Shown piece after piece: positions 37,105 through 52,774 of a DNA stretch of 64,000 bases. Under the pieces are notes generated by a model. The model had not been told where the DNA came from and searched no databases. It saw only the letters and a list, made by a program, of their open reading frames with translations. This DNA comes from Ensifer adhaerens (lineage in GTDB: Bacteria; Pseudomonadota; Alphaproteobacteria; Rhizobiales; Rhizobiaceae): positions 3,118,501 through 3,182,500 of the forward strand of contig NZ_CP083349.1 in the NCBI RefSeq assembly GCF_020035535.1, written 5' to 3'. Within the stretch, counting starts at the first letter, position 1, and the number at the start of each line of letters is the position of its first letter. The position numbers were made by a program, and so were the translations under genes.

Positions 37105-37272
37105 GGGAGAGGTGCGATCCACACAACCGATGGATATTTTACGATCCCGGGTGCCTACAAAGTAGGTGGGCGCCATGTGTCCAGACCCACGAGCCCGGAC
37201 AGGGACAGCTCCCTTGAGATCGAGTATGGCCCCGGGGATTGTGGTTCCTGTCGGGAAGCGCAGACCGCACCC
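37105..37272 (-). ncRNA. ssrS: 6S RNA, regulator of RNA polymerase
   Basis: The 236-base gap between zapA and the LysR gene has no open frame but folds as a closed long rod. GGTGCGGTC at the 5' side (37263-37271) pairs with GATCGCACC at the 3' side (37111-37119) as a 9-bp closing stem with one G-U. Inner pairings include CCACAA with TTGTGTGG and apical GTGGG with CCCAC. A small CCTAC-TTT-GTAGG hairpin lies on the 3' side. The length of about 160 nt, a TATATA -10 at 37275-37280 placing the start at the stem, and position directly downstream of zapA with fau nearby all match ssrS. 6S RNA mimics an open promoter and traps sigma-70 polymerase in stationary phase. Exact ends are approximate. Confidence 0.75.
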
Positions 37273-50424: not shown

Positions 50425-51726
50425 ATGAGAAAGAACCTGCTTCCGGTCGCCGCCCTCCTGCTCGGCACGCTGTTTCTCTTTCTGGGCAATGGTCTCCAGG
50501 GTCTGCTTCTTCCCGTGCGCGGCACCGCTGAGGGATATCCGACCACCATCCTTGGCCTGATCGGCACGTCCTGGGCAGCCGGCTTCGTTCTCGGCTGCTT
50601 CTTCGCCCCGAATATCGTCAAGCGCATCGGCCATGTGCGCGCCTTCAGCGTCTTTGCCTCTCTCATCGCCATCGTCGCGTTGTTGACCGGCATCATGATC
50701 GATCCGACCTGGTGGCTGATCCTGCGTGCGCTGACCGGCTTCGCCACCGCCGGCACCTCGATGATCATTGAAAGCTGGCTGAACGAACGCGCCACCAACG
50801 AGAGCCGTGGCGTCATTTTCTCGCTCTACATCGCCATCACGCTCTTCGGCGTCGTCGGCGGCCAGATGATGATCCCGTTCGGTGATACCTCGACCAGCAT
50901 CTTCTTCATGATCTGCGGCATTCTCTATTGCCTTGCCATGCTGCCGACGCTGCTGTCCAAAGCCGCCACGCCGCAGCCGCTGAAGCAGGTCCGCCTCGAC
51001 CTGCGGGCGCTTTACCGCAATTCGCCGGTCTCCTTCCTCGGCATCCTGCTTGTCGGCATCGCCAATGGCGCCTTCGGCACGCTCGGCGCCGTTTTCGGTC
51101 GGCAGGCCGGTCTTTCCGACAGTACGGTCGCAGCGATGATGAGCGTGGCAATCTTTGCAGGCGCGGTGATGCAGCTTCCGGCAGGCCGCCTCTCCGACCG
51201 CATCGACCGGCGCTATGTGCTGGCCGCGCTTGCCGGCGTCGGCGCCTTCGCCGGCCTGCTGATCTTCCTGATCGAGCCGAGCCAGGTCTGGATCGTGCTG
51301 ACGCTGATCGCGATCTACGGTGCTGCTGCCAATGCGCTCTATCCGATCGCCGTTTCCCATGCCAACGACTTTGCGACCGCCGAGGACTTCGTGAAGGTTT
51401 CCGGCGGCCTGTTGCTGCTCTATGGCATCGGCACGATCATCGGCCCGACGATCGGCGGTCCGGTCATGACGGCCGCCGGTCCCTACGGCCTGTTCATGAT
51501 TACCGCCTGTGCCCACATTTTGATCACGGCCTATGCCATCATCCGCAGCCGGATGCGCGCGCCCGTGCCGGTCTCCGACCGCGATGCCTTCTCGCCGGTC
51601 AATGCCGGCGCGCCGACGACACCGGAAAGCCTGCAGCTTTCGCCGCGCGCTGCCCCGCTCGAGGAAGCGCGTAACGAACCGGACAACAACCAGAAATGGG
51701 AGGATCAGACGGATGAGCCTGTTTGA
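50425..51726 (+). CDS. MFS transporter, YcaD-like
   Basis: 433 residues, 12 predicted helices: LLPVAALLLGTLFLFLGNGL (TM1), motif A region SFVLGCFFAPNIVKRIGHVRAFSV-type, RALTGFATAGTSMIIESWLNERA (characteristic of the YcaD/MFS_1 subgroup), and a second half with AGRLSDRIDRRYVLAALAG and GLLLLYGIGTIIGPTIGGPVM. A long soluble C-terminal tail (about 385-433, Pro/Glu-rich) ends WEDQTDEPV. Substrate unknown. The last 14 bases overlap the DUF1192 gene, so the pair is co-translated. ATG 50422 or 50425 could start it. Confidence 0.9.
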   Translation: MRKNLLPVAALLLGTLFLFLGNGLQGLLLPVRGTAEGYPTTILGLIGTSWAAGFVLGCFFAPNIVKRIGHVRAFSVFASLIAIVALLTGIMIDPTWWLILRALTGFATAGTSMIIESWLNERATNESRGVIFSLYIAITLFGVVGGQMMIPFGDTSTSIFFMICGILYCLAMLPTLLSKAATPQPLKQVRLDLRALYRNSPVSFLGILLVGIANGAFGTLGAVFGRQAGLSDSTVAAMMSVAIFAGAVMQLPAGRLSDRIDRRYVLAALAGVGAFAGLLIFLIEPSQVWIVLTLIAIYGAAANALYPIAVSHANDFATAEDFVKVSGGLLLLYGIGTIIGPTIGGPVMTAAGPYGLFMITACAHILITAYAIIRSRMRAPVPVSDRDAFSPVNAGAPTTPESLQLSPRAAPLEEARNEPDNNQKWEDQTDEPV

Positions 51727-51901
51727 CGACGACCGACCACAAAAGAAGCTGGTGCACGAAATCGGCAGTGATCTTTCGCTGCTTTCAGTCGATGAACTCA
51801 CCCAGCGCATCGCGTTGTTAACCGAAGAGATCACCCGGCTCGAGGCCGAGCGGACGCGCAAATCCGCAAGCCGGTCCGCCGCCGAGAGCCTGTTTCGCTG
51901 A
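51713..51901 (+). CDS. DUF1192 small protein
   Basis: 62 residues: MSLFDDDRPQKKLVHEIGSD, LSVDELTQRIALLTEEITRLEAER (a short amphipathic or coiled helix) and a C-terminal SAAESLFR. This is the DUF1192 family, small alphaproteobacterial proteins often encoded beside the DUF1465/RcdA gene, as here. It overlaps the MFS gene by 14 bases. Confidence 0.85.
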   Translation: MSLFDDDRPQKKLVHEIGSDLSLLSVDELTQRIALLTEEITRLEAERTRKSASRSAAESLFR

Positions 51902-51943: not shown

Positions 51944-51958
51944 TTAACGGCAAATTAA
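51944..51958. promoter_or_regulatory. CtrA-type box upstream of the candidate sRNA
   Basis: TTAACGGCAAATTAA is an exact TTAA-N7-TTAA match, 14-28 bases before the predicted start of the candidate sRNA and overlapping its -35 position. Confidence 0.6.
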
Positions 51959-51971
51959 GCATTATCTGCGA

Positions 51972-52082
51972 TTGTCAGGGCATCCGGAGCTTTCCGGTTT
52001 CAGACAATTTCTCCGACTGGCGAATGGGTCTGATTTTTCTCCCTGTTTTACCTTGAGAGCCGCTTTCCGCGGCTCTTTTTTT
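51972..52082 (+). ncRNA. Candidate small RNA with strong terminator, between DUF1192 and rcdA
   Basis: About 110 nt. A -10-like TTATCT at 51962-51967 would start transcription at about 51972, exactly at a 5' hairpin closed by ATTGTC (51971-51976) and GACAAT (52003-52008), with an inner CCGGA/TCCGG stem. A single-stranded stretch with TTTTTCTCCCTGTTTT (anti-ribosome-site-like CUCCCU) follows, then the terminator GAGCCGC/GCGGCTC with TTTTTTT (52057-52082). The CtrA-type box sits just upstream. It may instead be only the 3' untranslated region of MFS-DUF1192. No frame of useful length is seen. Confidence 0.55.
52057..52082 (+). terminator. Strong intrinsic terminator
   Basis: 7-bp GC stem GAGCCGC/GCGGCTC with a TTTCC loop and seven T residues, then further T-rich sequence. 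It ends the candidate sRNA and any readthrough from DUF1192. Confidence 0.9.
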
Positions 52083-52117: not shown

Positions 52118-52132
52118 TTAACCCTTTCTTAA
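52118..52132. promoter_or_regulatory. CtrA-type box in the rcdA promoter region
   Basis: TTAACCCTTTCTTAA is an exact TTAA-N7-TTAA match about 125-138 bases before the rcdA-like ATG. A TATCGG hexamer (about 52157) about 24 bases later could serve as the -10. Confidence 0.6.
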
Positions 52133-52255: not shown

Positions 52256-52774
52256 ATGTCCGAGAGAGGATTGAATACGGTCAGTTTCGCAGGACACGCA
52301 GCGTCCTCGGCACAATTCAAGACGCTCTATTCGGAAGGCATGGGTCTGGTCGAGGAAACGGCCACCTATCTCGATGGTTCCGGACGCGCCGCCTCGAAGG
52401 TTCTGCCGCGCATGGCATCGGTACTCTATGCGGCCGAGTCCATGCGGCTCACCACCCGCCTGATGCAGATGGCCTCGTGGCTGTTGCTGCAGCGCGCCGT
52501 GAACAACGGCGAGATGAGCCGCGACCAAGTGATGTCGGAAAAGAGCAAGGTGCGCCTCGACAGCTTCAACGTCGACCGCGCTGCTCCGGGTTGGGCGGAC
52601 CTTCCGGAATCCTTCCGTGACCTGATCGAACGCTCGCTGCGCCTGCAGAACCGCGTCGCCCTGCTTGACCGCGAAATCTACCGTCCGCACGAAGCCGCTG
52701 CGATCGTTCCGGACAACCAGAATGGCGTCAAGGCGCAGATCAAGCTTCTGCAGACGGCCTTTGGCACCAACTGA
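52256..52774 (+). CDS. rcdA: RcdA-like protein (DUF1465), probable ClpXP/CtrA degradation adaptor
   Basis: 172 residues, all helical: SAQFKTLYSEGMGLVEETATYLDG, RMASVLYAAESMRLTTRLMQMASWLLLQRAV, ESFRDLIERSLRLQNRVALLDREIY. These match the DUF1465 family to which Caulobacter RcdA belongs. RcdA is an adaptor for cell-cycle-controlled proteolysis of CtrA and other substrates by ClpXP. ATG 52256 (MSERGLNTVSFAGH) has AGG upstream and fits rhizobial homologues; ATG 52229 is possible. Two perfect CtrA-type boxes lie upstream, suggesting CtrA controls its own degradation adaptor. Confidence 0.88.
   Translation: MSERGLNTVSFAGHAASSAQFKTLYSEGMGLVEETATYLDGSGRAASKVLPRMASVLYAAESMRLTTRLMQMASWLLLQRAVNNGEMSRDQVMSEKSKVRLDSFNVDRAAPGWADLPESFRDLIERSLRLQNRVALLDREIYRPHEAAAIVPDNQNGVKAQIKLLQTAFGTN

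Follow-up and report, generated by a model that had tools for sequence, protein, structure and literature searches.

A putative CtrA-controlled small RNA next to rcdA in Ensifer adhaerens, the likely orthologue of Sinorhizobium meliloti SmelC671/Sm84

The short region ahead of rcdA in Ensifer adhaerens appears to encode a small RNA controlled by CtrA. In the window, that is, the whole stretch of 64,000 nucleotides analyzed here, we consider positions 51982–52082 to be a CtrA-controlled trans-acting sRNA orthologous to S. meliloti SmelC671/Sm84, with a probability of about 0.8. The RNA is already catalogued in relatives under several names (SmelC671/Sm84, ReC71 and BjrC1505); the accessible part of the open-access literature yielded no paper tying SmelC671, Sm84 or BjrC1505 to CtrA or rcdA.

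Organization of the locus

The following elements make up the locus:

51713..51901, + strand: DUF1192 gene (PF06698), which stops 42 bases short of the CtrA box
51944..51958, + strand: CtrA box TTAACGGCAAATTAA, matching all 8 half-site bases and spanning −38 to −24 relative to the inferred start
51970..51975, + strand: weak −10 element GATTGT, aligned by eye with TATTAC, GATTAC and TTTACT of relatives
about 51982..52082, + strand: predicted small RNA of ~101 nt; our own model R1 gives 77.5 bits at 51981–52082
51984..51997, + strand: stem-loop 1, CCGG...CCGG (AUCCAG...CUGGAU in relatives)
52000..52033, + strand: stem-loop 2, outer stem UCAGAC/GUCUGA
52034..52056, + strand: unpaired tract UUUUUCUCCCUGUUUUACCUUGA, anti-Shine-Dalgarno-like
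52056..52082, + strand: Rho-independent terminator, with seven T at 52076–52082
52118..52132, + strand: second perfect CtrA box TTAACCCTTTCTTAA, closer to rcdA
52256..52774, + strand: rcdA (DUF1465, PF07323; E 3.5e-59), which begins 173 bases past the RNA end

A preliminary description of this DNA had pointed out the CtrA box, the −10 element, the stem-loops, a tract containing CUCCCU and the seven-T terminator, and all of these are present at their assigned positions and on the forward strand. It had also placed them between DUF1192 and the gene for a CtrA-degradation adaptor, in agreement with the PF06698 domain found upstream and the PF07323 domain found downstream. We take the DUF1465 family (PF07323) to be RcdA, which is consistent with the published papers.

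A consensus scan of the RNA locus detected neither a sigma-70-like −35 element nor a sigma-70 promoter. What the RNA promoter does contain is the TTAA-N7-TTAA box of the CtrA regulon. Just 46 perfect copies of this box occur in the 8.1-Mb genome, and two of them, at 51944 and 52118, are found here, 174 bases apart. Given the rarity of perfect boxes, together with the stability of the RNA fold and the conservation of the DNA, the occurrence of the box pair and the RNA at this locus is beyond chance. Elsewhere in the window, a 6S RNA (37112–37269, − strand; 79.5 bits) and a serC leader (852–904, − strand; 71.3 bits) are collinear with S. meliloti.

We propose that CtrA would bind the box lying over the absent −35 region and, most likely, would activate a promoter with a weak −10 element. 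The RNA would end at its own terminator, and its two hairpins would present an unpaired CUCCCUGUU tract of 20-odd nucleotides that may cover the Shine-Dalgarno regions of target mRNAs. The product of the neighboring rcdA is an adaptor in the proteolysis of CtrA; two CtrA-linked outputs, regulation by RNA and turnover of CtrA, may thus be combined at one locus. The sequence itself and the conservation of box, RNA and synteny are observed, and the RNA has been detected by others in S. meliloti; the dependence on CtrA and its sign, the pairing mechanism and the targets are putative.

Relationship to known small RNAs

That S. meliloti SmelC671/Sm84 and the window RNA are orthologues is almost certain. 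Sm84 was reported between the forward genes SMc03988 and SMc03989, with a Northern band of ~80 nt and a microarray signal in six stresses, and its promoter was assigned to sigma-70 in 2008 (PMC2573895). SmelC671 was defined by 454 RNA-seq as an RNA of 100 nt at 2986421–2986520 and was classed as trans-encoded (PMC2873474). As in the window, the RNA lies between two forward genes and on the same strand. The link is provided by S. meliloti Ak57, in which gene order and strands around DUF1192–RNA–DUF1465 match those of the window and 6S RNA lies to the same side. Ak57 has its 6S RNA 13.0 kb away, compared to 14.3 kb according to Rm1021 coordinates (a difference of 1.3 kb between the two) and 14.9 kb in the window. 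Moreover, the window and Ak57 loci are identical in 91 of 102 aligned columns, and in Ak57 there are exactly 100 nt from the A of AUCCGG to the last U. Judged by Ak57, SmelC671/Sm84 shows no qualitative difference from the window RNA; the Northern estimate of ~80 nt falls short of the 100 nt. The independent small RNA envisaged in the preliminary description, with a terminator and a CtrA-boxed promoter of its own, has thus acquired a published S. meliloti orthologue, and its box is kept across Hyphomicrobiales. The accessible text of the SmelC671/Sm84 papers mentions no CtrA box and assigns no role.

ReC71 was named as the R. etli relative, and further relatives were traced to Bradyrhizobiaceae and Methylobacteriaceae (PMC3927594). 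Based on synteny and structure, the window RNA also appears to be a divergent relative of Rfam BjrC1505 (RF02356). An Rfam scan run below gathering cut-offs matched it to this family end to end, but the 24.4 bits (E 0.023) fall short of the gathering cut-off (50). With the same model, 130–134 bits are obtained for three Bradyrhizobium rcdA loci, which identifies their rcdA-linked RNA as BjrC1505 itself. Both RNAs are located beside rcdA and follow the order hairpin, hairpin, tract, terminator. Hairpin 1, the tract and the terminator are common to them, whereas the window's subgroup has a different hairpin 2 and the tract reads UUUUUCUCCCUGUUUUACC in the window instead of GACGCCUCCCUGUUAAC. Positions 1 to ~40 of the RF02356 model appear to cover the promoter with its CtrA box, as if both were part of the transcript.

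Two cell-cycle sRNAs of S. meliloti have been listed, ppGpp-stimulated EcpR1, which targets dnaA and gcrA, and GspR, which targets ctrA and cspA5; SmelC671 is listed without a function, and the text of that 2020 table, from which symbols may have been lost, carries neither a promoter motif nor an Hfq mark for it (PMC7143759). Like the RNA predicted here, EcpR1 (SmelC291) and GspR (SmelC775) are trans-sRNAs, and each is linked to the Sinorhizobium cell cycle. However, the former resides at divK-pleD/rpmG and the latter at SMc03844/SMc03845, not between DUF1192 and rcdA. The window RNA is therefore neither EcpR1 nor GspR; the preliminary description had left undecided whether it is one of the CtrA-linked trans-acting sRNAs known in Sinorhizobium. 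Caulobacter CcnA is also a CtrA-linked noncoding RNA and has a C-rich loop, but it is encoded at the origin of replication. RNAs of the suhB/MmgR/AbcR type (RF00519) have a CUCCCU tract followed by CUU and a G+C-rich terminator, as the window RNA does. Nevertheless, the score against this family is 23.2 bits, below the cut-off of 41, the location is different and there is no common 5′ half.

Start and fold of the RNA

The start had originally been placed at about 51972. In the alignment of relatives, the box is followed by ~11 bases, a −10 element (TATTAC and similar), ~6–7 bases and AUCCAG or AUCCGG. Together with the 100-nt length of SmelC671, this arrangement shifts the 5′ end, which is probably near 51982, ten bases downstream. 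The estimated RNA length of 101 nt derives from the box spacing and the terminator. The choice of start also bears on the tract, which had been described as exposed. When folding begins at 51972, CAGGG pairs with CCCUG and the tract is hidden; when it begins at 51981 or 51982, the tract is unpaired. Exposure of the tract thus holds for the later start but not for the earlier one.

The fold of 51982–52082 has a z-score of −4.1, and none of 200 shuffled sequences was as stable. Covariation was assessed in alignment A1, comprising 54 of the 61 rows, with seven rows from the window's own genus left out. Double changes were present in 15 of 19 pairs, including five of the six pairs of stem-loop 1, and the observed values were reached in none of 500 shuffles. 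These values count hairpin 2 as it occurs in relatives outside the Rhizobiaceae core, GAGUGG/CCACUC and placed differently, a form absent from the window's subgroup (74.3% paired). In the 16 rows of that subgroup, 14 of them distinct, 97.2% of cells are paired with few double changes, and for hairpin 2 the corresponding figures are 96.4% and zero; covariation inside the window's own subgroup is weak. Positions 52035–52063 are invariant in all 16 of its rows, CUCCCUGU is retained across most of the order, and a strong terminator is likewise conserved in the order.

Association of the CtrA box with the RNA

The DNA of the locus is conserved in 33 of 61 genomes, including the window's own. Where the surroundings could be searched, rcdA was close by in 29 of 30 DNA-matched loci, the exception (L029) being the same locus as L056 (see below). 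RF02356 matched 57 of the 61 genomes at E 0.1, 31 of them above the cut-off, and in 52 of these 57 genomes no more than ~1.5 kb separated the main match from rcdA; 14 named control genomes gave a single match, below the cut-off. In a class-wide set of 142 genomes that contains the window's own, RF02356 matched 12 at E 0.001, of which six were over the cut-off and four of these six had rcdA nearby (G069, G173, G181 and G183). At E 0.01, R1 matched 27 of the 142 genomes, again including the window's own, and a profile search found rcdA in 8 of 29 loci, own included. The weaker of these matches outside the order are doubtful; one of them (L095) has the look of a tRNA followed by a terminator.

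We asked how often the CtrA box accompanies the RNA. A box with at least 7 of 8 half-site bases, located 21–26 bases ahead of the hairpin, was present in 52 of 61 rows compared to 0.7 expected, with the remaining nine rows lacking such a box at the expected place. After thinning, with the window's genus reduced to one row, the box was found in 37 of 46 rows (two of the 46 being second copies in one genome) versus 0.6 expected from shuffles. Excluded from the rows were four secondary RF02356 matches without a hairpin anchor (G028, G037, G038 and G054) and a Methylobacterium locus (L063), the terminator of which was missed by the search pattern.

An rcdA-centered census covered the best 80 of 591 relatives, from named genomes, all or nearly all of them Hyphomicrobiales. 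R1, the training rows of which partly overlap the census, found the RNA upstream of rcdA in 79 of the 80 loci. The only locus without it (L154) is a true miss, as it retains the end of DUF1192 and the whole interval up to rcdA. A CtrA-like box (at least 7/8) preceded the RNA by 20–28 bases in 78 of the 79 loci, a count made without a shuffle control. A second box anywhere between the RNA and rcdA was detected in 47 of 78 of these loci versus 4.2 expected, leaving 31 loci of this best-80-of-591 census with no box other than the one at the RNA. Some genomes have a second copy of the RNA (L050 and L073 in G053; L032 and L072 in G059; L086 and L096 in G061). Of two second copies, L073 has a perfect box, and L072 has none at the expected place. 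Taken together, these comparisons indicate that the box belongs to the RNA and stays with it across Hyphomicrobiales.

Search for targets

The preliminary description had proposed target prediction seeded on the tract, with other cell-cycle genes in mind. In the own genome, ACAGGGAG-N3-10-ATG occurs at 24 places, and no cell-cycle gene was recognized by eye among them. Across 25 genomes, AACAGGGAG-N3-10-ATG was found at 133 places (127 read), compared to 138 places (110 read) for a control with a scrambled extension of the same composition, CAAAGGGAG; the tract complement is thus not commoner than the control. No target recurred across genomes, as 116 ORFs, including those from the own genome, produced only four two-member clusters. 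The seeded prediction therefore proved negative against the control and gave no cell-cycle target. Secreted transporters were also considered as targets. By a home-made signal-peptide rule, 38 of 90 ORFs with the tract complement qualified versus 39 of 88 in the control (Fisher p 0.88), and the idea was dropped because the control set was equally rich. Across the family, secreted proteins make up more than 40% of readable ORFs at AGGGAG Shine-Dalgarno sites, whatever the extension.

The pairing of rcdA with the RNA has a z-score of −3.4 in the window species, and the S. meliloti gene is 5th among 26. However, over 57 of 79 loci, left after near-duplicates were thinned by hand, the mean z was −0.61, with values below −2 in 8 of the 57. 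As a target, rcdA is not convincing. Separately, ACAGGGAG precedes the start codon of gap (window ~40365), also in S. meliloti, where gap is 2nd of 26 genes for pairing.

Alternative explanations

The sign of the regulation could be the opposite. CtrA would then repress the RNA, with the box blocking RNA polymerase and the RNA appearing as CtrA falls. An occluding protein could indeed act at a box inside the promoter, but there is no good −35 element for CtrA-free transcription. Moreover, the position over a missing −35 is reminiscent of CtrA-activated promoters. Repression is thus unlikely.

Somewhat less likely still is that the RNA represents a prematurely terminated rcdA leader, with the terminator serving as an attenuator on a long CtrA-driven transcript and the small RNA being mainly a by-product. 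The RNA is on the rcdA strand, 173 bases ahead of its start, and is linked to it in nearly all census loci. Agrobacterial rcdA in three lineages has a secondary, presumably distal start in addition to the primary one, with CtrA motifs upstream (PMC10469942). Nonetheless, the strong terminator is conserved, and so is the unpaired tract, beyond what a leader would need. In addition, the box is retained in all five genomes that have the RNA but yielded no rcdA in the stretch examined (L035, L039, L050, L052 and L056; wider stretches L078 and L080–L083 were taken for loci without rcdA). Finally, in a Bradyrhizobium metagenome bin (L201, 774–914, − strand) the whole box–RNA unit is inverted relative to rcdA, possibly as an assembly fault given the nature of the source.

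About equally improbable is an RNA that acts on a protein, as a sponge or chaperone partner, and not by pairing with mRNA. Both the invariance of the tract in 16 of 16 rows and the failure of any pairing target to stand out would agree with such a role, whereas pairing sRNAs usually carry just such an unpaired, C-rich anti-Shine-Dalgarno tract followed by a U-rich terminator, and the RNA weakly resembles the suhB/mmgR model. As for a mere 3′ tail of the MFS–DUF1192 transcript stabilized by the terminator, the outcome that the preliminary description regarded as fatal to its proposal, it is very improbable despite the common strand and no terminator being seen between DUF1192 and the RNA, because the box and −10 element are conserved, in S. 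meliloti the orthologue has been published as a trans-encoded RNA of 100 nt (PMC2873474) and the box–RNA unit is inverted in L201.

Implications

In S. meliloti, ChIP-seq detected CtrA bound at rcdA, yet CtrA depletion left the rcdA mRNA level unaltered (PMC4433202). A CtrA site that drives the RNA would offer a simple explanation for this published puzzle. We infer that the distal CtrA site and the distal start serve the RNA. More broadly, and with slightly less than even confidence, we suggest that the box, the RNA and rcdA constitute a CtrA unit of ancient origin in Hyphomicrobiales and, in part, in other alphaproteobacterial orders. In this unit the 'rcdA promoter site' would primarily drive the RNA, placing a post-transcriptional arm next to the degradation arm.

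If a CtrA-driven RNA is indeed encoded here, one of the best-conserved rhizobial CtrA sites belongs to a noncoding RNA and not to a protein gene. It would have been missed by CtrA studies in which, according to the accessible text, motifs were sought upstream of coding genes only (PMC3616915). SmelC671/Sm84, ReC71 and BjrC1505 would be joined as one locus-defined RNA with a testable regulator. The presence of the box before the RNA in nearly every relative examined suggests an old, largely overlooked link between CtrA and RNA control.
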